Origin: Ruminococcus sp.
GTDB lineage: Bacteria > Bacillota > Clostridia > Oscillospirales > Ruminococcaceae
Direction of reading: 5' to 3'
Length of the DNA stretch: 64,000 nucleotides
Assembly (NCBI GenBank): GCA_017519145.1
Contig: JAFWTA010000038.1
Location: forward strand, 1-64,000
Shown here: positions 29,112-40,191 of the stretch, piece after piece
How the letters are laid out: every line of letters starts with the position of its first letter
How positions within the stretch are numbered: position 1 is the stretch's first letter
The notes under the pieces: model-generated
Seen by the model: the letters and a program-made list of their open reading frames with translations, nothing else
The model's database searches: none
What the model was told of the DNA's origin: nothing
Made by a program: the position numbers and the translations under genes

Positions 29112-30557
29112 TTATTTTGACTCTGCAAAGACTTCGTTATCGATGACCTGACGGTTTCTGTCAATATCATCTATCCAGAGTACATTTCCTACATCAACAT
29201 CTTCACCGTGGAATGTGCCGTCGGCAGGTATCTGTATCTGCTTGATCGAATACCGCGCACAGAAAGGCATTCTCAGTGAGAGCAGGTACATATTCATGCC
29301 CGACATATTTGTGGATACATCAGGGATGACATCTGATGCGAGATTTTTGAACATTGAGGGCTTGAAGCTCTTTACTTTCGCGAAGATGAGGGACATTACC
29401 CGACGCTGGCGCTCTGTACGCTCAAAGTCGCTGTTGCCCACCTTTCTGATACGGGAGTAGGAGAGAGCCTGCTTGCCGTTTAAGTGGAGCTTTCCGCCGC
29501 CGTTCAGAAGGTCTGACATCCTGTCGTCGCCTACGAGCTCGTTTACCTCGGATATGAGGATAACATTTATCTCCTCGGCTTCTGCGTCCGAGACCTCAAG
29601 GTCTATGCCGCCAACAGCATCTACCATGGATACGAAGGAGACAAAGTCCACTGAAACATAGTCGTCGATGCGGACGTCGAAGTTGTATTCTATGGTATCC
29701 ATGAGCAGCTCGGGACCGCCGAATGCATAGGCTGCATTTAGCTTGTTCCAGCCGTTATCCGGGATCTCCACATAGCTGTCACGCATGAAAGAGGTCATGA
29801 TTATCTCGTTGGTCTTTCTGTTGAGTGACACCAGTATCATTGAGTCTGAGCGGCCGCGGTCATCGGAGGTCCTGCCGTCAGTACCTATGACAAGGACATT
29901 GCGGACATGACCTTTTCCTACACTGTCAGCGTAATGATTGCGGTGACCTGTGGGTTCCTGATTTACCTGTCTGATAAGGCAAACTGATGTACATGAGTAT
30001 ATTCCGAAAAGCAGCAGGAAAAGTATGAGGATAATATGTATTATCCTGCGGATTATTCTTCCCACAAGGGACTTGTGTCTGCGCTTTTTCTTCTTTTTCT
30101 TAGGAGCCTCCTCCTCATGACGGGGAGCTGTGGGCTTTTTACCGCCTGTGGGCTGAGGTCTCGGGGACTGAGGCGCCATTGGCGGAGGCGGTGCGTATCC
30201 GCCTCCGCCGGAGGTATTGCCTCCGTATTCCTTAGGAGCCTGTCTCTCATAGTCATAGTAGCGGCGGTCGCTGTAGTCGAACTGCTGCTGAGGCTGAGGG
30301 GGTGGTGTGGACTGAGGAAAGCGGGGTGGCTGTCCTGTTTTCGGAAACTGAGGAGGTGTATCATTGCTGCTGTACTGTGGTGACTGAGGCTTGACGCTCT
30401 GCTGCGGAGCCTGTGACGAAGCTCTGCGATTGACCTTTCTCAGGGGAGGAAGATCGGACTTTGGCGCGCCGTAGCCCTCAAGATCATTGGGCAGGAGCAC
30501 GGTATCCTCATTATCGGTGTTCTGGATGTTGTCGTTATCATTATATCTGTTTGACAT
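29112..30557 (-). CDS. LytR-CpsA-Psr (LCP) family wall-polymer ligase
   Basis: A 481-residue type II membrane protein. A long Pro/Gln-rich cytoplasmic tail (1 to about 150) leads to a Lys/Arg cluster (APKKKKKKRRHK), one membrane helix (about 168-188) and the extracellular LCP domain (about 215-440). Conserved text: VLVIGTDGRTSDDRGRSDSM, IMTSFMRDSYVEIP and NKLNAAYAFGG. LCP enzymes transfer lipid-linked wall polymers to peptidoglycan. The tail is unusually long and may be a place for kinase or scaffold control; this is inferred. It is separated from the gene upstream by a terminator. Confidence 0.88.
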   Translation of the reverse strand: MSNRYNDNDNIQNTDNEDTVLLPNDLEGYGAPKSDLPPLRKVNRRASSQAPQQSVKPQSPQYSSNDTPPQFPKTGQPPRFPQSTPPPQPQQQFDYSDRRYYDYERQAPKEYGGNTSGGGGYAPPPPMAPQSPRPQPTGGKKPTAPRHEEEAPKKKKKKRRHKSLVGRIIRRIIHIILILFLLLFGIYSCTSVCLIRQVNQEPTGHRNHYADSVGKGHVRNVLVIGTDGRTSDDRGRSDSMILVSLNRKTNEIIMTSFMRDSYVEIPDNGWNKLNAAYAFGGPELLMDTIEYNFDVRIDDYVSVDFVSFVSMVDAVGGIDLEVSDAEAEEINVILISEVNELVGDDRMSDLLNGGGKLHLNGKQALSYSRIRKVGNSDFERTERQRRVMSLIFAKVKSFKPSMFKNLASDVIPDVSTNMSGMNMYLLSLRMPFCARYSIKQIQIPADGTFHGEDVDVGNVLWIDDIDRNRQVIDNEVFAESK

Positions 30558-30630: not shown

Positions 30631-33162
30631 TTATGTTTTTTTCAGGCTCACCGCTATGTATGTCAGTGCAGTCCATGCGATGTTGTAGACTGTCACGGCT
30701 GTAGCCGACATATACACGAAATTGGACTGGAACGCCTTTGAGAGTATCAGCAGCATACACAGTACAAATCCCAGAAGTATGGAAGCGGATTGCAGTATCA
30801 GTCCTATTATCGCGGACGAATGGACTACCTTTGTTCCGATTATAAGCTCTGCAAGTGAAGCAAATTTACCGGTAGTTGCCATCGAAGCACTCAGACGAAC
30901 TGCCTTTTTGGTCTCCTCATAGAAGTCCTCATGGAGCTTCTTGGGGAGTATCCTTGCCATCTCCTCGGGTATACCAAAAAGAGTGTTGAGCTTTTTCAGT
31001 GTTATACAGGGGTCGATGCTCTTGATGAACATACATATCTTCTGCTTTGCAAGCTTCTTTGCCCATTTCTTCACATATCTGTCAGCAACGATATCAACGA
31101 CGAAAAGTGCCGCGAGATTTCCTGATATAGAAAGATAAAGTGCATCCTTCCTGCCGTCCACGAACTCAGCTTCCTGAGTTTTTGTGGGAACGCCTTCAAT
31201 GTTGTGGCTGGTCATGAGTTCGCGGTTTCCGAAGAGTACGCGCTTGTTGTTTATCCAGCCGCACATTCCCATTCCCTCCTCGTAGGAGTAGTTCTCAATG
31301 GGATAGAGGGCACCGTTCCTGCCGGCGATAACATCTGTGAAGAGCTGTGACATTATGCTTCCTGCGGTAGCTGTAAGGCTTGCCGCTTCGAGGAGAGCCT
31401 CGTCAAGCTTTGTATTGGAGAAGACCTTGATACCGTCGAGTCTGACTGTACCCTCGGGGAAGAGAGTGCTTGCGTCGATGAGAATGGAGTTGGTATCATA
31501 GAAGTCGTCAACGCTCTGATAGCCAAGCATTATACCCTTGTTTCTGATAGCGCTGTTTGAGACGTTCTCAAGAGGGATATTGACTACAAATGGCATTGCT
31601 ATGCAGGATGTGGCACATATTATCATACTGAATATGGAGAAGCCGAATGCAGCAGACTCCATGGTAGCAAATGTACCCTTGCAGAAGAATGTGAGGAAGA
31701 GCGAGACTAAGATGGAAGCTATGAGACACAGCGGCGAAGCCTTGCGGCAGAAGTCGTCGGTCATATCCGAGGAATATGTGTATCTCAGGAAGTCGGTCAG
31801 GAAGTCGGTCTTTCTCATTGAAGCGAGGATAGGGAAGTCGCCAAGAGTTCCGCGGGTAATGCGTTCGGCTCTGTCCTCGTCGGTCACATAGGTAACGCCG
31901 TGCCTGTCAAAGTTTTTGGACACGAACTTGAAGTTTCGCGCCGCTCGTCTGATGATAAGCAGCTTGCCGATGGCATTTATCAGCAGCGCCAGAATACCAA
32001 CAGGCATATATATGTGGATATTTTCCGAGCTTACAAGGTCGGGGCGCATGAATGCGGGGATAATTGCGATGAGGCAGGACAGTGCGGTGACTGCCGTCAT
32101 GGAATCGCTGTCCGCCTTGAAGCTGAGCAGCTTCCGCAGTCCCTTTGTGATGACTGCCATGGAGGAAAGCACCGAAATTGCGCCGAGTACGAGATGTATG
32201 GTCAGGTATGTCTTTATATGGGACATACTGAGAAAATCAAGTATAGGAAGCTCAAACTGATTGGTCACAGTCATGAAAAGACTGAGGAAGGCAGTCATTG
32301 CCAGTATGAACACTCTTACGGAAATAGTGCTCTTCAGCTCATAGATATCTCTGCCCACGTCCTCTACATCACCGTAGTAATTAAAGTCAACGATGCGCTT
32401 TGTGCGCTTTGACTTTGAGTGGAGGGACATGAACTCGTCCGCCTCCTGAGTGATGTGAACATCCAGCTGACCTGCATTTATATCAGCTTTTTCGCTGAGG
32501 TTGATGCTGGTGAGCTCTGCTCTGGGAGCCGGCTCAACGGGCTTTGCAGCTTCCACAGCGGCAGGTGAGGGGACGATATCCGTTATCTGCTTCTTGCCCT
32601 CCGGACTTTCAGCTGCCTGTATTATCTGTATCCTGCTTCGTTTTTTCTTCTTGAATTCGGGGGGAGTATACATATACTCACCCTCGGGAGTCTCCCTTGC
32701 GTAGGTGTAATCGTTGTCCTTGCCGCGTCTTTTCTTGCTGCGCTTTTTAGCGCTCTGGACCTCTTTTGCTCTGGTGGACTCGCTCATTCTCCTTATCTTC
32801 GGAGCTTCGTCGGGAGTCATCTGTACCGGGGTGATAGTGCCTGAGGGGATGACCTTTCTCTGGGGATTGGTGCGTATCTCGCTCATGGCGTCAGAGCTTA
32901 CAACGGCTATTTTATGCCGTGAGAGATCGGCGGGCTTTACGTCGTCCGCAGGAGTATCGCTTCTGAGAGCGTTATCGAAAAGTGCTGATTTTTCGTGTGA
33001 GACAGGAGGTCTCGACTTAGCTTTTTCAACGATGTCGGGAGATTCTACGGTAGAGTTTATTATCTTCTGGGCATCGACTCTGCCCACTCTCGTCTTGGGT
33101 TCTTCGTTATCGGGAGAGTACTCGTCAAGAATAGCCTCCAGCGACGGTTTCTGTTCCGACAT
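30631..33162 (-). CDS. Degenerate P-type-ATPase-like membrane protein
   Basis: An 843-residue protein. The first 280 residues are a charged cytoplasmic tail with Lys/Arg clusters. Membrane helices and a body follow in the P1B-type-ATPase order, but with the key residues lost: the CPC-type helix reads ATSCIAMP (about 517-524), SAIRNKGIMLG matches the usual linker, the phosphorylation motif DKTGTLT reads DASTLFPEG (D563 onward), VLFGNREL matches the nucleotide-domain text, and the TGD and GDGxND hinge motifs are not found. Two helices end the protein. It is probably a pseudo-pump or regulatory membrane protein. The start is ATG 33162, with AAGGAG upstream, 10 bp after rlmB. Function unknown. 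Confidence 0.7.
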   Translation of the reverse strand: MSEQKPSLEAILDEYSPDNEEPKTRVGRVDAQKIINSTVESPDIVEKAKSRPPVSHEKSALFDNALRSDTPADDVKPADLSRHKIAVVSSDAMSEIRTNPQRKVIPSGTITPVQMTPDEAPKIRRMSESTRAKEVQSAKKRSKKRRGKDNDYTYARETPEGEYMYTPPEFKKKKRSRIQIIQAAESPEGKKQITDIVPSPAAVEAAKPVEPAPRAELTSINLSEKADINAGQLDVHITQEADEFMSLHSKSKRTKRIVDFNYYGDVEDVGRDIYELKSTISVRVFILAMTAFLSLFMTVTNQFELPILDFLSMSHIKTYLTIHLVLGAISVLSSMAVITKGLRKLLSFKADSDSMTAVTALSCLIAIIPAFMRPDLVSSENIHIYMPVGILALLINAIGKLLIIRRAARNFKFVSKNFDRHGVTYVTDEDRAERITRGTLGDFPILASMRKTDFLTDFLRYTYSSDMTDDFCRKASPLCLIASILVSLFLTFFCKGTFATMESAAFGFSIFSMIICATSCIAMPFVVNIPLENVSNSAIRNKGIMLGYQSVDDFYDTNSILIDASTLFPEGTVRLDGIKVFSNTKLDEALLEAASLTATAGSIMSQLFTDVIAGRNGALYPIENYSYEEGMGMCGWINNKRVLFGNRELMTSHNIEGVPTKTQEAEFVDGRKDALYLSISGNLAALFVVDIVADRYVKKWAKKLAKQKICMFIKSIDPCITLKKLNTLFGIPEEMARILPKKLHEDFYEETKKAVRLSASMATTGKFASLAELIIGTKVVHSSAIIGLILQSASILLGFVLCMLLILSKAFQSNFVYMSATAVTVYNIAWTALTYIAVSLKKT

Positions 33163-33172
33163 AATTATCTCC

Positions 33173-33934
33173 TTATTTGCTTCCTCTGCGCTGGCGGAGC
33201 ACTTCATACATGAAGATACCTGCCGCAACGGAAGCATTGAGTGAATTTATCCTTCCCAGCATGGGAAGCTTTATCATGAAGTCGCATTTTTTCGCGATGA
33301 GCTTGCTTATACCGAAGCCCTCCGAGCCTATTACAAGACCGACCCCGCCTGTGAGATCTGTCTCGGAGTAATCTGAGCCCGAGGCGTCTGTGCCGTATAT
33401 CCACACGCCGTTATCCTTGAGGGTGTCGATACAGGCGGCAAGGTTGGACACTCTTGCTACGGGGACGTAGCTTGCCGCGCCTGCCGAGGTCTTGAAGACA
33501 GTGGCATTCAGTGAGGCGCTCCTGCGCTTGGGGATAATGACTCCGTCAGCGCCCGAAGTCTCGGCAGTACGGATGATAGCACCGAGATTGTGTGGATCTT
33601 CGATCTCATCGCATATGATGATGAAGGGCTTGGTGCCCTTTTCCTGTGAGACTGCAAGGATATCCTCAACAGTCACATACTCTCCGCAGGCGCCCTCGGC
33701 AACTACACCCTGATGGGAAGCGCCGCCCGAAAGGCGTGAGAGCTTTTTATCGTCGGCGTCCTTTACAACAACGCCCTGTTCCTTTGCCATTTTGCGGATA
33801 AGTCCAAGACTTCCGCCGTTTCCGTCTATGTAGATAGTGTCGAGGTTAGCCCCTGATTTGAGCGCCTCGATGACGGGATTACGTCCGCATATGATATTTT
33901 CGGACATCTCTGCAGTTCTTTTATCTTTTTCCAT
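33173..33934 (-). CDS. rlmB: SpoU/TrmH-family rRNA 2'-O-methyltransferase, RlmB-like
   Basis: A 253-residue SPOUT methylase that would methylate the 2'-OH of a guanosine in 23S rRNA. It has the short RNA-binding N-terminal domain (IICGRNPVIEALKSG) and the SPOUT domain: DEIEDPHNLGAIIRTAE, VIGSEGFGISKL and KLPMLGRINSLNASVAAGI. These are the three standard motifs that form the knotted SAM site. Length is normal. RlmB and TrmH-type tRNA enzymes are hard to separate by eye; the N-terminal domain favours RlmB. It heads a two-gene unit. Confidence 0.88.
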   Translation of the reverse strand: MEKDKRTAEMSENIICGRNPVIEALKSGANLDTIYIDGNGGSLGLIRKMAKEQGVVVKDADDKKLSRLSGGASHQGVVAEGACGEYVTVEDILAVSQEKGTKPFIIICDEIEDPHNLGAIIRTAETSGADGVIIPKRRSASLNATVFKTSAGAASYVPVARVSNLAACIDTLKDNGVWIYGTDASGSDYSETDLTGGVGLVIGSEGFGISKLIAKKCDFMIKLPMLGRINSLNASVAAGIFMYEVLRQRRGSK

Positions 33935-34012: not shown

Positions 34013-34041
34013 ATTATACCATTATTGAGCTGAAATTACAA
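34013..34041 (-). promoter_or_regulatory. Promoter of the rlmB operon
   Basis: On the minus strand: TTGTAA, 17 bp, TATAAT, about 80 bp before the rlmB start. The leader has a small TCCCT/AGGGA stem. Confidence 0.7.
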
Positions 34042-34087: not shown

Positions 34088-34930
34088 TCATCTGTTTATA
34101 TCGATCACCGAAAGCTCGGGACGGTTGAATATTCTCGGAATGTATATCATTCTCAGAGGTCGGGCAAGTCCTACGCTTATTATATGCACAGTGCCGTCAT
34201 ATTCGTACATTCCCTGCGTATAATCCGGGAAAATTCCCTGATCGGGGGCGTAGAGTCCCTGATCAAGCAGCTTTGGTATCCTCCACTGACCGCCGTGGGC
34301 GTGACCGGAGAGGATAAGGTCAAAGTTTTCCTTATTATTGAGTCCCTCGCCGAGGTATGCATTTATCTGTTCGGGCTGATGGGCGACAAGTATATTGTAA
34401 TAATCGCCGTCAAGAGTATCGAAGCACTCCTCGAGCTGTGTCTTGTGTTTGCCCCATGCAACAGAGTCCTCTGCGCCGTATATCCTGACTTTTTCGCCGT
34501 TTACGACAGTCTCGGAGAAGTCTCCGAGCAGCAGGGGACATATCTCCCTGACCTGCTCATAGAATTCCTCGGTATCCTTGCGCATCTCCTCGTGATTACC
34601 CGGGGAATAGAAGCATGGATACTCGGCAGAAAGCGCCTTCATGAGGGTGAGGGCGTGTTTTGTGCCGCCCCATGCGTCCACAACATCACCGCCGAAGATA
34701 ACTATATCGGGGGCTGCCTTGCGGACCTCGTCTATTATTCCCGACTGGTCGGTACCGCCGTAGAAGCAGTTGTGGAGGTCCGAGATAAAGACTATCCTCA
34801 TACCGTTCTGAAGCTTCGTACTTTTTACCTTGTAGCTGACCGTCCTCATTGTAAATCCCCATGCGGACAGCAGAGCAAGAACCAGCAGTATAATTGCGAT
34901 GATAAGACGCTTTTTAGCCTTTTTCGACAT
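34088..34930 (-). CDS. Membrane-anchored metallophosphoesterase (YkuE/YaeI-like)
   Basis: A 280-residue protein with one N-terminal membrane helix (about 8-27) and a calcineurin-like phosphoesterase domain: ISDLHNCFYGG, GGDVVDAWGG, SPGNHEE, VAHQPEQ and SGHAHGGQWR. These are the two-metal ligands. Family members act on phosphorylated lipids at the membrane, such as UDP-diacylglucosamine or phosphatidylglycerol-like substrates. It is the last gene of the MBOAT/FkbH operon: its ATG overlaps the stop of the ACP gene (TAATG), so it is translated with it. A role in recycling a lipid carrier or donor is inferred from this position. Confidence 0.82.
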   Translation of the reverse strand: MSKKAKKRLIIAIILLVLALLSAWGFTMRTVSYKVKSTKLQNGMRIVFISDLHNCFYGGTDQSGIIDEVRKAAPDIVIFGGDVVDAWGGTKHALTLMKALSAEYPCFYSPGNHEEMRKDTEEFYEQVREICPLLLGDFSETVVNGEKVRIYGAEDSVAWGKHKTQLEECFDTLDGDYYNILVAHQPEQINAYLGEGLNNKENFDLILSGHAHGGQWRIPKLLDQGLYAPDQGIFPDYTQGMYEYDGTVHIISVGLARPLRMIYIPRIFNRPELSVIDINR

Positions 34931-35172
34931 TATTTTCCTCTTTCTGCGATGATGTTAATCATCTCTCCAACGTTCTTCATGCCGGAGACCTCACGCATCT
35001 TGAAGCGCATGCCGAACTCGTCCTCAACAGCAGCGATGAGGTTGATATGTTCGATGCTGTCCCAGTCCTCGATATCATCTGAAGTGGTGGAAGGTGTTAC
35101 GGAAATGGAGGGATCACCGAAAACGTCGCGGAATACCTCGTTAAGTCTTGCTGTTATCTCATTATTGTTCAT
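34930..35172 (-). CDS. Acyl carrier protein (operon-specific)
   Basis: An 80-residue acidic ACP. Ser39 in DWDSIEHINL is the site for the phosphopantetheine arm. It is not a typical fatty-acid AcpP (which reads DSLD) and resembles the stand-alone carriers found next to FkbH-like proteins. Its start overlaps the FkbH gene by 11 bp and its stop overlaps the phosphoesterase start, so it belongs to this operon. It would carry the group that FkbH loads. Confidence 0.9.
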   Translation of the reverse strand: MNNNEITARLNEVFRDVFGDPSISVTPSTTSDDIEDWDSIEHINLIAAVEDEFGMRFKMREVSGMKNVGEMINIIAERGK

Positions 35173-36964
35173 TGTTGTTCTCCTTATCGCGAATTTTTAT
35201 TACTTTGTTCTTGTTTTCGTAGTTTTCGATATCCATATGCCATACAGAATCGCCGTTTTCTGCTGTTCTGTCACAAGTAAAGCCGAAAGTGCCGTAGAGC
35301 TCCGAGACCAGATGGTTCTTGAGGGTCTTATAGTAGAATCCGTTGAGGCGGCTGATGCCCTTTTCCTTAGCAAGGCGCACAAGCTCGTCAAGCATGGCAA
35401 GCTCCATATCTCTTTTCAGTACGCGGCAGCTCATGAGCCAGAGCTCAATATCAAGCTCATTGCCGCGGCACTTGCCGATAATTACGGAAACTATGCCGTT
35501 ATCGCCGAACTTGTCCAGAAGCCTTCCGCAGAGGCATATATGGTCGGGACTGAGACTGATTTCGTGTATCTCATTCTCGGTATATCGCCTTGTAGTCAGG
35601 TTGAACTGGTTGCTCTTGTTGGTGAGCTGAGTGATACGCTGGATATATATTGGCTTGAAGCCGCATATAACAGCGTTCATGTCAAGGCTCAGGAGATAGT
35701 CTTCATAGCTCTCGAATTCCTTGCGCTGTGCAGCTCTCTGAGCATTTGCCTTGTACATCTCAGAGCGGTGCATATCGTCCTCGGAAACTGAGGTGACCTC
35801 GAAGTAGCCGCCTCTTGTAAGCTTGTACATAGCATCGTGGACGTTGCTCAGATTCACGGTCTGTACCATGGGGAGCTGTCCCTCAACGATGGCGCACTCA
35901 GCGGGATTGTCGTCAACGAACACAAAGCTGTCAAGACCGAGACTGAGTTCATCGGCGGCTTCTGCGATATTCCTGTCCTTGGGCTCCCAGTTTGCCTTGA
36001 TGGAGACAAAATCGGAGGGGGAGAGGATGCTACTTGGGTGCTGAAGACCGAGGAGGGCGTTTTCCTTCTCGTTCTTGGAGCATACAGCAAGAAGCACACC
36101 GTAGTCCTTGTAGCCCTTTATGAAGCTCTGAAATTCCTCGTAAGCCTGTCCGACCGCTGTTTCGGGGCCTATTTCGATGCCCTCCTGACCATCATCGCCT
36201 ATGACTCCGCCCCAGAGGGTGTTATCGAGGTCGAGGTCAATGACCTTATGGTTCTTGCCGTAAATGGACTTGATTATACAGGCAAGGCTGTATGCAAGGT
36301 CGGGGATAACAGCTGTGCTCATGGCGTACTTGTAGAGATACCATGCCTCAGCATCATGCCAGCGGGAGAGGCCGCAGACTGCGGAGAGGTAGTTGATATC
36401 ATGGATATAAAGCCCGTGAGCGTTCCTTGCGTAGTCCGAGAACATAACGTTCATACGTTCAATGAATGCGCCGTGACCTGTTACGCTCCAGCCGTCATAG
36501 CTGCCTGTACGTCTGAACAGAGGCTGCTCGAAGTTGTTCTGTATAATAGGGCAGGAATAGCGCTGTATAAGGCTTTCCCAGACCTGTCTGAATATGCCGA
36601 ACTGCTCGTCAAGTCGATGCTGCACTCTTTCGGGCTTTTCAGCCGGACTTTCGGGCAGAAGCGTAAGATTTCTCGAAGTGGTATGGATATAGATGATGTC
36701 GGGTGCGAAGCTGTCCAGCTCGGGATTACCGAAAACTGCGTCCTCATAGAACTTGTTGTACTCCGACTGGTAGAATTCGGGCTCAATGCCGAAATTCAGC
36801 AGAAAAAGTTCCAGTGCGGATACGATGTGGTTAGTCGTTGAGCCCCCCAGCACAGCGACCTTTTTCCTGATGCGGACAGTGCCGTCGGAAAGCAGCGCTT
36901 TTTTCAGCGCCAGCCTTTTGCGTATTATGTCCTTGCCATCAAAGGGAAAGTTGAGTTCTCTCAT
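35162..36964 (-). CDS. FkbH-like HAD-IIIC protein
   Basis: A 600-residue soluble protein. It has an N-terminal SGNH-like region (VAVLGGSTTNHIV near residue 36), a HAD-IIIC domain with the catalytic text DLDLDNTLWGGVIGDDG (D245/D247) and FVDDNPAEC, and a C-terminal GNAT-like domain (FGDNGIVSVIIG, ELYGTFGFT). In polyketide pathways FkbH-type enzymes take the glyceryl group of 1,3-bisphosphoglycerate, remove the phosphate and load it on an ACP. Here the ACP gene follows directly, but no polyketide synthase or dehydrogenase is present. The adjacent MBOAT and DHHW genes suggest that the loaded group goes to the cell surface. Confidence 0.85.
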   Translation of the reverse strand: MRELNFPFDGKDIIRKRLALKKALLSDGTVRIRKKVAVLGGSTTNHIVSALELFLLNFGIEPEFYQSEYNKFYEDAVFGNPELDSFAPDIIYIHTTSRNLTLLPESPAEKPERVQHRLDEQFGIFRQVWESLIQRYSCPIIQNNFEQPLFRRTGSYDGWSVTGHGAFIERMNVMFSDYARNAHGLYIHDINYLSAVCGLSRWHDAEAWYLYKYAMSTAVIPDLAYSLACIIKSIYGKNHKVIDLDLDNTLWGGVIGDDGQEGIEIGPETAVGQAYEEFQSFIKGYKDYGVLLAVCSKNEKENALLGLQHPSSILSPSDFVSIKANWEPKDRNIAEAADELSLGLDSFVFVDDNPAECAIVEGQLPMVQTVNLSNVHDAMYKLTRGGYFEVTSVSEDDMHRSEMYKANAQRAAQRKEFESYEDYLLSLDMNAVICGFKPIYIQRITQLTNKSNQFNLTTRRYTENEIHEISLSPDHICLCGRLLDKFGDNGIVSVIIGKCRGNELDIELWLMSCRVLKRDMELAMLDELVRLAKEKGISRLNGFYYKTLKNHLVSELYGTFGFTCDRTAENGDSVWHMDIENYENKNKVIKIRDKENNNEQ

Positions 36965-36973
36965 TTTATCTCC

Positions 36974-38479
36974 TTATTTGTTAAGATTATTGTGTATGCA
37001 GCTGCGGTTTGCCCCCACAGCTGAGAATGAGCACATGGCAAAAAGCACATCCGTAGCCCCGACGCTGTCTATGAAGTCGATGGCGTTCAGGTCGAAATAA
37101 CGTATATCACAGAGATATATGTTCTCGAAGGAGCTTGTCAGCATGGGCAGCAGAGCGTTGCCGTAGCTGTCCTTGAAGATGACAAGATTTCTGCCGTTCT
37201 TGCACTCTGTATTTACATGGACTATCCTCTCGTCAGAGCCGAATACCATATAATAGCCGGAATTAGGCATGGGAGTCGGGTCAAGGAGAAGGTTGGCTGC
37301 CACAGGATTCTGGAAATGGGTGTCGTACTGTGTGACAGTAACGGGAGTTTTGGGCTTATAGTATACGAAGTCCTCGGGATTATTGAGGAGAGTAGCGCTC
37401 TGGGTGTACATATAGAGCGTACCCACATATCCGGGGAGAGTGACTGTTTCGTATTCTGACAGTTCGGCAAAGGGAACACCTGCCATGAGGGCAAATTCCT
37501 GTGCTGCGTAGTAAGCGCCGAGAGGCTGCCAGTGGTGGTCGGTTCGGGAGTAAATAGCCTCGTTCTTGTGAGCGTTGAGGATATTGTAAGCATCAACGGG
37601 AATGACTCCCTTCAGCGAAGCCTCTATCTTGTCGAAGTCATCCTTCTCGCTGTAAGCAAGATTGCTGTACTGCTCGGGGATGTAGAATGAGCTTGAGGTG
37701 GGGAGCACCATTGAGTAGACGTTTTTGCCGCCGAGAGCCTCTTTGTATTCATTCACAAAGGAAGCGTACTCCTGCTCGGTGCCCCATGCGCCGCCGTAGA
37801 GAGTGACACCGCGCTTGTTTACGATGAGGATATTGTTGGTGAGCTCTCCCTGCGCTTGCTCTTCCTCCTGAGGTGGAGCGGTTGTCTCGGGAACAGCCGT
37901 TGTCTCTGACGTCGGTGCAGGGGACTGAGCTGCAGCAGTGGTGGTCACCTGCGGAGCTGTTGTTATGGCAGCAGCAGGAGGCTTGCGTACAAAGCCGCTG
38001 CCATAGAGCTCGGCTCCGTCTTCGCCGTCGCCGTATTTCCTGCCCTTGAGAGGCGTGATGTTATCGGCGATGAACTGTTTTATGTGAGCGCGGTCGTGGA
38101 CCGTATCATCGAAGTAGTCCGCAATGCCTGCGGTAAATTCGCCGCTTATATAGCTCTTAGGTGAGAACTTCGGTAAGGTTGTGAGCATACGGTTCTCATC
38201 ATCAGCCTTGGTCTCATGGGGGAGAAGGGCAACGTAAACGAAGCCGCCGGCGAAAATGGCTCCCATAAGTATGATATTGGCAAGAGCAATAGAGTTCAGG
38301 ACAGTCTTTCTGCGCTGTTTTTTCAGCTTTTTAGCCTTTATGGGTATATCTATGGCTGTTTTTTCGCGGTCTGAAGCCTCTATGGATATAACGGGCTCGG
38401 GACGTACAGCCTTATCGCTCACATCTGCGGACTTGTTTTTTTCTTTGTCCTTGGATGCGTTTTTGTTATCTTCATTCAT
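36974..38479 (-). CDS. DHHW-family SGNH-like acyltransferase partner (AlgJ/AlgX-like)
   Basis: A 501-residue membrane-anchored extracellular protein. It has a Lys-rich cytoplasmic tail, one membrane helix (about 60-85), a Thr/Pro/Ala-rich linker (about 168-205) and an AlgJ/AlgX-like domain with the defining SRTDHHWQPLG (D314, H315) and a later Ser motif FKDSYGNALLPML. In alginate systems such proteins receive acyl groups moved by an MBOAT protein and place them on the polymer. It lies 9 bp before the FkbH gene and 12 bp after the MBOAT gene. Acceptor polymer unknown. Confidence 0.85.
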   Translation of the reverse strand: MNEDNKNASKDKEKNKSADVSDKAVRPEPVISIEASDREKTAIDIPIKAKKLKKQRRKTVLNSIALANIILMGAIFAGGFVYVALLPHETKADDENRMLTTLPKFSPKSYISGEFTAGIADYFDDTVHDRAHIKQFIADNITPLKGRKYGDGEDGAELYGSGFVRKPPAAAITTAPQVTTTAAAQSPAPTSETTAVPETTAPPQEEEQAQGELTNNILIVNKRGVTLYGGAWGTEQEYASFVNEYKEALGGKNVYSMVLPTSSSFYIPEQYSNLAYSEKDDFDKIEASLKGVIPVDAYNILNAHKNEAIYSRTDHHWQPLGAYYAAQEFALMAGVPFAELSEYETVTLPGYVGTLYMYTQSATLLNNPEDFVYYKPKTPVTVTQYDTHFQNPVAANLLLDPTPMPNSGYYMVFGSDERIVHVNTECKNGRNLVIFKDSYGNALLPMLTSSFENIYLCDIRYFDLNAIDFIDSVGATDVLFAMCSFSAVGANRSCIHNNLNK

Positions 38480-38491
38480 TTGTGTGCCTCT

Positions 38492-39892
38492 TTAAAATCT
38501 GTAATACAGGAATGGGTGAGTAGTTGAGTCAACAAGCATGATGCTTGTTATCACCAGAAGAAGTGCTGCGGCAACAGCAGCTGACGATGATATGACAGCC
38601 TTTGAAGCAAAACGCTTGTCCGATAAGGTTTTTATACCGTTTAAGACAGGGAAGCAGCATATCACCGCGATGATGAGCAGGTACATATTATTGATGAGAG
38701 AGATCCTGTCCTGCACCGCGATGAAACCGTTTTTGCCGAAGCCGAAGGCTGTCTTGAAAAAAGTACCCAGCTTGCCGATATCCTCGAAATAGAATATGCC
38801 GAAGCCTATGAATATTACGAACTTGCTGTATATATGCCTGATAACAACAGGAATCTTCTTCATCTTCTTTTTGCCTATCTTCATTTCGATAAAGACGAAG
38901 ACACCGTAGTAGAGTCCCCAGAAAATGAAGTTCCAGCTTGCTCCGTGCCATATGCCCGTACAGAGCCATACGAGGAAGAGTCCGCCGTACTTCCTGCGCT
39001 TGCCGAAAATCGGGATATACAGTACATAGTCACGGAAGAATGTACTGAGGGAGATATGCCAGCGCTGCCAGAATTCGGTAATGTCCTTGCAGATAAAGGG
39101 ATGATTGAAGTTTTCGTCAAAGTGGAAGCCGAAAACTCGTCCCAGACCGATGGCTATATCGGAATAGCCCGAGAAGTCAAAGTAGATACGCATTCCGTAT
39201 GCGATGACTCCGTACCATGCGCCAAAAGCGGTGCTTCCGCCGATATTGCCGAGAAAACTTTCCGAGATGATGTTGAGCTGGTCAGCAAGAAGGACCTTCT
39301 TAGCCAGTCCTAAAGCGATACGGTTAAATCCGTAGGAAATATCGCGGAGCTCAACAGTACGGTTCACGATCTCTTTTTCGATGGTGCTGTATCTTACAAT
39401 GGGACCTGCCACAAGCTGAGGGAACAGTGTGAGGAAGAGCAGAAAGTTCTTGAAGTTCTTCTGAGGCTTTACCTTTTCCCAGTGGCAGTCTATTATATAG
39501 GATATGGTCTGGAAGGTATAGAAGCTGATACCTATGGGAAGCCGTATATCCGGAACAGGTATAGAGCATGAAAAAAGGGCGTTGATATTTTCTGCGATAA
39601 AGCCGCTGTACTTGAATATGCCCAGCATAAGAAGGTCGTATGCAACAGCCGCAGCAGTCGCAGCCGTATCGCCCCCCTTGCCCTGATATTTCCCGATAAT
39701 GAGACCTGCTGTATAGTTGACAGCAGCAGTCAGCAGCATCAGGAAAATATAAACGGGCTCGCCCCATGCATAGAATAACAGCGAGAAAATGATCAACACC
39801 GTATTTTTTTGTTTGATCCCTCTTGCCGCTGCATATACGAGCAGGCATAAAGGGAGAAATATATATATAAAGAAAAGTCTTGAAAAAACCAT
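38492..39892 (-). CDS. MBOAT family membrane O-acyltransferase (AlgI/DltB-like)
   Basis: A 466-residue protein with about 11 membrane helices. AlgI-type motifs: FYTFQTISYIID, GYSDIAIGLGRVFGF, NFNHPF, ITEFWQRWHISLS (H279) and the catalytic His in CTGIWHGASW (H316). MBOAT proteins pass an acyl group from a cytoplasmic thioester across the membrane. It is the first gene of the five-gene operon. Where AlgI uses acetyl donors and DltB uses D-alanyl carrier protein, this one has its own ACP and FkbH, so the carried group is probably unusual. Confidence 0.9.
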   Translation of the reverse strand: MVFSRLFFIYIFLPLCLLVYAAARGIKQKNTVLIIFSLLFYAWGEPVYIFLMLLTAAVNYTAGLIIGKYQGKGGDTAATAAAVAYDLLMLGIFKYSGFIAENINALFSCSIPVPDIRLPIGISFYTFQTISYIIDCHWEKVKPQKNFKNFLLFLTLFPQLVAGPIVRYSTIEKEIVNRTVELRDISYGFNRIALGLAKKVLLADQLNIISESFLGNIGGSTAFGAWYGVIAYGMRIYFDFSGYSDIAIGLGRVFGFHFDENFNHPFICKDITEFWQRWHISLSTFFRDYVLYIPIFGKRRKYGGLFLVWLCTGIWHGASWNFIFWGLYYGVFVFIEMKIGKKKMKKIPVVIRHIYSKFVIFIGFGIFYFEDIGKLGTFFKTAFGFGKNGFIAVQDRISLINNMYLLIIAVICCFPVLNGIKTLSDKRFASKAVISSSAAVAAALLLVITSIMLVDSTTHPFLYYRF

Positions 39893-40019: not shown

Positions 40020-40048
40020 ATTATACAACAAATACTGCTGAAATGCAA
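40020..40048 (-). promoter_or_regulatory. Promoter of the MBOAT-FkbH-ACP operon
   Basis: On the minus strand: TTGCAT, 17 bp, TATAAT. The RNA would start near 40013, giving a leader of about 120 nt before the MBOAT start at 39892. Confidence 0.7.
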
Positions 40049-40164: not shown

Positions 40165-40191
40165 ATCCCCTCACCATTTCGGTGAGGGGAT
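40165..40191 (-). terminator. Terminator of the SPFH operon
   Basis: An 11-bp perfect stem (ATCCCCTCACC / GGTGAGGGGAT) followed on the minus strand by TTTTTATC. Confidence 0.9.

Follow-up and report, generated by a model that had tools for sequence, protein, structure and literature searches.

A candidate carrier-fed surface acylation cassette of MBOAT, DHHW, FkbH and acyl carrier protein genes in Ruminococcus

The operon and its conserved core

In this study, we focus on a five-gene operon of Ruminococcus sp., a bacterium of the rumen (assembly GCA_017519145.1, contig JAFWTA010000038.1), which lies in a stretch of 64,000 nucleotides that was analysed at its full length and is hereafter called the window. 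Five open reading frames are placed head to tail on the - strand (34088-39892) and encode an MBOAT-family membrane O-acyltransferase, a DHHW protein, an FkbH-type enzyme, an acyl carrier protein (ACP) and a calcineurin-type phosphoesterase. Comparison with other genomes gives good support to reading the first four as a putative acylation cassette in which a carrier protein feeds the MBOAT-DHHW pair.

The MBOAT gene (38492..39892, - strand) encodes 466 residues and matches PF03062 with 88.1 bits (cut-off 27). It is followed by the gene of the DHHW acyltransferase, of the SGNH superfamily (36974..38479, -; 501 residues; PF14286, 138.8 bits for a cut-off of 25), and by that of the FkbH-type enzyme (35162..36964, -; 600 residues; TIGR01686, 276 bits for 146.65, and FkbH_N PF21211, 37.5 bits for 27). 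Then come the ACP gene (34930..35172, -; 80 residues; PP-binding PF00550, 26 bits for 20.8) and the gene of a YaeI-like phosphoesterase with an N-terminal hydrophobic stretch (34088..34930, -; Metallophos PF00149, 57.1 bits for 21.5). All five proteins pass the curated cut-offs of their families, the ACP by the smallest margin. From 5' to 3', the genes are separated by gaps of 12 and 9 bp and then overlap by 11 and 1 bp, and the coordinates thus confirm the tight, one-directional arrangement that a preliminary description of this DNA had reported.

The complete motifs claimed in that description for the MBOAT, DHHW/SGNH, HAD-IIIC FkbH and ACP proteins were likewise recovered residue by residue, in addition to the family scores. 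The MBOAT carries RWH (His279) and IWHGA (His316), with a loop PIFGKRR at 294-300 that replaces PLGG(N/S)R. The FkbH enzyme is made of FkbH_N, a HAD-IIIC core and a C-terminal part with SCRV (Cys513), its motifs being DLDNT at 245, SKN at 296, DDN at 351, NQFN at 452 and SCRV at 512. The phosphopantetheine site of the ACP is Ser39 (D38-S39), in DWDSIEH. In the DHHW protein, a single hydrophobic stretch (58-88) precedes a linker that by eye is rich in T and P, and the catalytic domain that follows contains DHHW at 314-317, KDSYG (Ser438) and DIRY at 458, the same three motifs (DHHW, DxRY and Ser) as in PatB1.

The gene order was then compared in two sets of loci, which have at least three contigs in common. 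The order sample derives from the 38 of 197 genomes of the order with an FkbH match; 39 loci were fetched with wide flanks, and among the 48 order-wide matches, the one in the window itself was set aside, as were four in G102, two in G067 and one in G041. It comprises 31 loci with a full-length FkbH and eight short or partial ones that were counted apart (three with an MBOAT, and one, L053, with a broken FkbH). The second set contains 79 full-length named loci chosen by FkbH similarity, several of whose contigs stop inside the cassette. In the order sample, an ACP gene directly follows FkbH in 27 of the 31 full-length loci (gap of -74 to 29 bp), a same-strand MBOAT is found within 5 kb in 20 and a DHHW gene in 16, and 24 loci have at least one of the latter two. 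In the named loci, the corresponding counts are 75 for the ACP, 61 for the MBOAT and 64 for the DHHW gene. Chance adjacency was rejected as an explanation, since a same-strand MBOAT neighbour within 5 kb is expected at about 1% of loci, an estimate based on the one to six MBOAT genes that most of the genomes listed hold in about 2 Mb, versus the 20/31 observed. The conservation of the gene order in other Firmicutes that the preliminary description proposed to look for is therefore found, and it goes far beyond what chance would produce.

This conservation does not extend to the phosphoesterase, which is found in none of the 31 full-length order-sample loci and in 32 of the 79 named ones. Its place as a core member was rejected, as, among the loci read, it accompanies only FkbH proteins with 65% identity or more; judging from these gene neighbourhoods, it is a lineage-specific late addition outside the conserved core. 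The five-gene unit first described thus holds for its MBOAT-DHHW-FkbH-ACP part. The close relatives of the FkbH include those of R. flavefaciens ND2009 (94%) and SAb67 (96%), and the genome of the operon belongs to the Ruminococcus flavefaciens group. As a control, we read 20 MBOAT-DHHW pairs located away from FkbH, and none of these 20 loci contains an FkbH or ACP match. The ACP therefore accompanies FkbH and not the MBOAT-DHHW pair as such.

Several other arrangements join the same genes. One type has FkbH-ACP-MBOAT followed by an SGNH-like protein (motifs read by eye), and loci L063-L065 have FkbH-ACP-MBOAT-DHHW. The SGNH partner of the FkbH-ACP-MBOAT loci was considered as a DHHW protein and rejected (hhalign probability 1.4%); by eye, its GSS and DxxH motifs are those expected of an ordinary SGNH enzyme, and its GDSL matches are at best weak and under the Pfam cut-off. 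In L197, L198 and L200, the genes adjoining the MBOAT match no Pfam family above cut-off. Two further loci (L071 3425-8056, L072 1641-6191) have in a row an MBOAT, a polysaccharide deacetylase (PF01522), an ACP-like protein whose PF00550 match is below cut-off and a short polyketide-type FkbH. Plasmids of Alphaproteobacteria (Rhodobacteraceae SC52, Sinorhizobium meliloti and Tistrella) have annotated ACP, FkbH and MBOAT genes within a few kb, the MBOAT of Tistrella being on the opposite strand to its neighbouring FkbH and ACP; two other alphaproteobacterial plasmids have FkbH and ACP with no annotated MBOAT nearby. At three loci, a protein of 442-446 residues occupies the place of the MBOAT (L035 11441-12769, L042 9781-11121, L046 10980-12314), with a DUF308 match above cut-off in L035 and just under it in L042, and with L046 assigned by length and place only. 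In L203 (Bacillota), FkbH-ACP seems by eye to be surrounded by flagellar and chemotaxis genes, a setting that would be compatible with the decoration of a flagellar glycan. An fkbH-domain gene of C. jejuni, cj1302, lies within a region compared for flagellar glycans (PMC7099621, excerpt).

The MBOAT lineage and its loop

A tree was built of 64 MBOATs. The 27 sampled ones with the gene order of the operon make up a single clade (support 100/99), and a branch with 99/92 support parts the 20 controls, together with the MBOAT of C45:100947, from all 43 FkbH-linked MBOATs. The C45:100947 protein sits on a long branch and its placement is unsure. It is a third MBOAT of the operon's genome (G000 C45:100947-101531; L003, L056), with RWQ and FWYT instead of the His motifs and with a DHHW match 0.8 kb further on, and it is likely inactive, judging from these residues.

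The same division is seen in the loop that follows RWH. In the alignment, the controls have (Y/F)(I/F)P(L/M)GG(N/S)R, the clade of the operon mostly has PIFGKRR or a similar stretch, and a longer, basic insertion is seen in most MBOATs that belong to the FkbH-ACP-MBOAT type. We counted the pattern [LIM]GG[NSC][RK], hereafter LGG, taking as linked any MBOAT with FkbH within 5 kb. None of the 82 FkbH-linked MBOATs has it, nor do any of the three alphaproteobacterial linked ones. It is present in all 67 comparison MBOATs, namely the 20 controls, 40 further MBOATs of the order and seven from plasmids, a contrast weakened by the fact that the 40 were drawn from the top of a score-sorted list and that one of the seven plasmid records lacks the annotation to establish the absence of FkbH. 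The loop also lies where a carrier could be expected. According to the excerpt of PMC11035591, DltC docks on DltB through Met302, Val305, Ile306 and Met309 of helix HC, with Lys312 and Arg317. In our alignment with DltB, counted from His289, Met302 faces Tyr292 of the operon's MBOAT, just ahead of the loop. DltB is without LGG at this docking stretch and so is the MBOAT of the operon, and we infer from this analysis that the mark has value.

Given that the 40 further MBOATs came from a score-sorted list, we next tested 31 genomes of the family, in which both MBOAT and FkbH matches were listed. Here, 32 of the 82 unlinked MBOATs fail the first LGG pattern, and LGG was rejected as an absolute rule. 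These 32 include degenerate or cut proteins, proteins with LGG before another letter and intact proteins with other loop types; of the two FkbH-unlinked MBOATs of the operon's genome, one has the pattern and the other does not. With revised criteria (RW(H/N) with a following WH, LGG before any letter, FkbH above cut-off), an intact non-LGG MBOAT is found in 12 of 13 FkbH genomes versus 3 of 16 other MBOAT-bearing genomes (Fisher p 1e-4), a result to be discounted to the extent that the intact-motif filter was chosen after the count of 32/82 was known. It is also found in 8 of the 9 FkbH genomes that have no linked MBOAT (p 0.002), and both p values are optimistic because the genomes are related. 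Two of the three FkbH-free exceptions are DltB proteins (414.6 and 408.8 bits for a cut-off of 375, with DltD in the same genomes), which are known carrier-fed MBOATs; the third is in a 55%-complete assembly.

Loci with DHHW-FkbH-ACP and without MBOAT provide a further comparison, in which a matching MBOAT elsewhere in the genome was expected beforehand. All four genomes with such loci (G108, G136, G159 and G181, all of one genus) hold an MBOAT with PIFGKRR or TIFGKRR elsewhere. Among five further FkbH genomes, four have a non-LGG MBOAT among those read. This reading covered 28 MBOAT loci, with one place in G189 and two proteins of G191 set aside.

Several observations weigh against the proposed connection. 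Four of the 31 full-length order-sample loci have no ACP, MBOAT or DHHW gene and three have the ACP only. The FkbH genome G604 has no non-LGG MBOAT at all, G189, also an FkbH genome, has none among the three read of its four, and one of the four FkbH-free genomes read, G050, has one. The MBOAT of C45:100947 is unlinked and without LGG, though it also lacks both His residues, and in L210 an LGG-type MBOAT (PLGGSK) lies about 1.1 kb upstream of FkbH-ACP. As for the enzyme itself, the FkbH of the operon is only 24-30% identical to the seven polyketide-type FkbH compared, and the identity of an FkbH is no proof of glyceryl, since glyceryl-ACP can be converted further. Finally, the MBOAT label is weakly clustered on the FkbH tree (41 of 500 shuffles are as low), where gains and losses are inseparable.

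Donor chemistry, acceptor and rival explanations

D-x-D, S(K/R)N, the two D residues and SCR(V/I) are conserved in each of the 31 FkbH compared, which include proteins from methoxymalonyl-type (L216, L217) and tetronate-type clusters (L219, L199), the type being judged from annotated neighbours. These common core motifs support the same chemistry, and glyceryl is by analogy the likely transferred group. The distribution of the MBOAT label over the tree of these 31 proteins calls for six changes or more, counting gains and losses alike. In this tree, the polyketide-type FkbH and the short FkbH of L071 and L072 form a group supported at 100/100 and remote from the long FkbH found in the operon. 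Linkage to an MBOAT is thus seen in two FkbH types with a deep split between them; multiple origins of this link are only partly shown by these sequences. Two Lachnospiraceae loci (L130, L146) have no MBOAT nearer than 5 kb; there, FkbH-ACP is flanked by trmB on one side and by a 6-phosphofructokinase gene on the other, the latter a vague pointer towards glycolysis.

Taken together, the conserved order, the non-LGG loop, the co-occurrence across genomes and the matching MBOAT elsewhere make it very probable that FkbH-ACP feeds the MBOAT of the operon. The preliminary description had proposed the FkbH-loaded ACP as donor; the conserved order, the distinct MBOAT lineage and the lack of LGG at the docking place speak in favour of this proposal, which keeps the standing of a prediction. 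The process would comprise three steps. From the chemistry of its family, FkbH would take the glyceryl group of 1,3-bisphosphoglycerate, remove the phosphate and load the group on the phosphopantetheine of the operon's ACP. Glyceryl-ACP would then dock on the cytosolic loop of the MBOAT, which would pass the acyl group to the outer face, a step to which the loop and the co-occurrence point. Finally, as in its relatives PatB1 and AlgX, the DHHW protein would move the acyl group from the MBOAT to hydroxyls of a surface polymer, perhaps a wall polymer. This full explanation, a surface acylation cassette fed by a carrier protein with a Dlt-like logic and without Dlt proteins, is in our view reasonably probable.

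The nature of the acceptor is approached through the DHHW protein, which also matches ALGX (34.8 bits for a cut-off of 26.5). Its nearest solved relative is 4NZK (E 3e-84), that is EUBSIR_00411 of Eubacterium siraeum, described in the excerpt of PMC9487903 as not biochemically characterised. The same excerpt presents PatB1, a DHHW protein, as an O-acetyltransferase acting on the secondary cell wall polymer. The acceptor could instead be a membrane lipid or a protein, with a DHHW protein that is no polymer acyltransferase, and the annotated neighbours (SPFH; rlmB, an 868-residue protein and a LytR-CpsA-Psr (LCP) gene) indeed include no glycosyltransferase. We consider this unlikely, as the DHHW protein retains the PatB1 motifs and passes the ALGX cut-off, other FkbH genes lie within glycan clusters (by annotation or by eye) and an LCP gene is nearby. 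The LCP family attaches wall polymers; this gene (29112-30557) is only suggestive, since rlmB and one further gene intervene.

If the ACP does feed the MBOAT-DHHW pair, the acyl group might be lactyl, methylglyceryl or another hydroxyacyl derived from glyceryl-ACP. Genes for a methyltransferase, an SDR or a Glyoxalase_4 (VOC) protein are found at other FkbH-ACP loci, where their products could modify the acyl group on the carrier, and published polyketide pathways propose oxidation and methylation of glyceryl-ACP (PMC7489565, excerpt); the operon, however, has no such modifying enzyme, its nearest annotated genes besides the phosphoesterase being SPFH and rlmB, which leaves a modified acyl group a real but small chance. 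It is quite improbable that the MBOAT-DHHW pair acetylates a wall polymer from acetyl-CoA while FkbH-ACP, merely co-transcribed, serves another pathway. FkbH-free MBOAT-DHHW pairs are common, as the 20 controls illustrate, the DHHW protein PatB1 is an O-acetyltransferase (PMC9487903, excerpt), and acetylation is likewise proposed for PatA1/PatB1 of B. cereus and for the clostridial CcsH/CcsI (PMC7710045, excerpt). Nevertheless, the linked MBOATs form a separate clade without the LGG loop, FkbH goes with a non-LGG MBOAT even when the two are unlinked, and several gene orders join FkbH-ACP to an MBOAT.

As for the Glyoxalase_4 (VOC) proteins, small ones identified by Pfam match adjoin FkbH-ACP in L197 (11347-11775), L198 (2793-3260) and L210 (7240-7629), and others lie beside FkbH-ACP in L201 (by annotation) and in L149, L205 and L206 (by eye). 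By analogy with methylmalonyl-CoA epimerase, the alpha carbon of the acyl group on the carrier might be their site of action, which we mention as an idea only.

Extending carrier-fed acylation beyond the operon, we tentatively propose a second widespread class of carrier-fed surface acylation, using glycolytic glyceryl, in gut Clostridia and Alphaproteobacteria, in which an LGG loop would mark carrier-independent MBOATs and its absence carrier-fed ones, DltB included. According to the excerpt of a 2023 review, all MBOATs but DltB use acyl-CoA (PMC10213974); if true, a second ACP-fed class would widen the rule on MBOAT donors, give a name to an unrecognised surface modification of rumen and gut bacteria and allow MBOATs to be classified by their donor from a loop signature. 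The four-gene pairing was not found in the accessible parts of the literature searched, many subscription papers and all preprints being outside the search. In the excerpts of published work that mention both FkbH and MBOAT, these concern peptide natural products, with the two acting at different steps.

Boundaries, neighbours and comparison with known systems

The promoter that the preliminary description placed at 40020 is plausible from its sequence: the candidate (40020..40048, - strand), read by eye, has a perfect TATAAT at 40025-40020 and a poor -35, because of which a consensus promoter scan did not list it. Scans also gave a terminator-like hairpin of 12 pairs after the upstream SPFH gene (40165..40191, -), a probable operon boundary, and a promoter-like site before rlmB (34013..34041, -; 10/12 match with TG). 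Since this site precedes rlmB, it is a probable downstream boundary, which probably makes the phosphoesterase the last gene of the operon. Sites of both kinds are in slight excess only over chance in the region (12 promoter-like sites for 10.2 expected, 11 terminator-like sites for 8.0 expected).

The annotated neighbours are the SPFH gene upstream and, downstream, rlmB, the gene of the 868-residue protein and the LCP gene. The 868-residue protein (30631-33237 of the window, -), located between rlmB and the LCP gene, has no Pfam match; it has a weak match to CopA-type P-type ATPases (33.5 bits for a cut-off of 1316) and to PDB 3rfu (E 6e-7). The DKTGT box is missing, 23 relatives were aligned, and the protein appears to be a pseudo-ATPase belonging to the R. 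flavefaciens group. Two open frames on the + strand (34184-35791, 535 residues; 35837-36841, 334 residues), opposite the phosphoesterase, ACP and FkbH genes, are probably a codon-phase effect.

Four known systems can be compared with the operon. AlgI/AlgJ/AlgX of alginate O-acetylation also combine an MBOAT with SGNH-superfamily partners, and the DHHW protein passes the ALGX cut-off; the difference lies in the carrier protein, which belongs to the operon, while none is known for alginate O-acetylation. The glycerate-utilisation genes of tetronate and methoxymalonyl pathways share with the operon an FkbH with the same core motifs and a stand-alone ACP. In contrast to them, the operon has no polyketide synthase among its annotated neighbours, and the predicted recipient of its acyl group is a membrane acyltransferase. 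PatA1/PatB1 of Bacillus cereus and CcsH/CcsI of Clostridia are MBOAT-DHHW pairs with the DHHW, DxRY and Ser motifs, but they are proposed O-acetylation pairs. The FkbH-free pairs that we read, which are not the PatA1 and CcsH loops themselves, have the LGG loop and no ACP, whereas the operon has an ACP and no LGG.

The last system is the D-alanylation system Dlt, from which the operon differs in its proteins. The MBOAT reaches 152.6 bits on the DltB equivalog TIGR04091, under the cut-off of 375, FkbH stands instead of the ligase DltA and the DHHW protein instead of DltD. DltD (PF04914) was not found in the genome of the operon, a 94%-complete assembly, with Bacillus subtilis and Lactococcus lactis as positive controls; DltA has no match among the five operon genes, the genome itself not having been searched for it. 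The likeness lies in the logic of the system: both the operon and Dlt combine an MBOAT with a dedicated cytosolic carrier protein and an outside partner of the SGNH superfamily, and in both the MBOAT is without LGG in the loop at the place of carrier docking.

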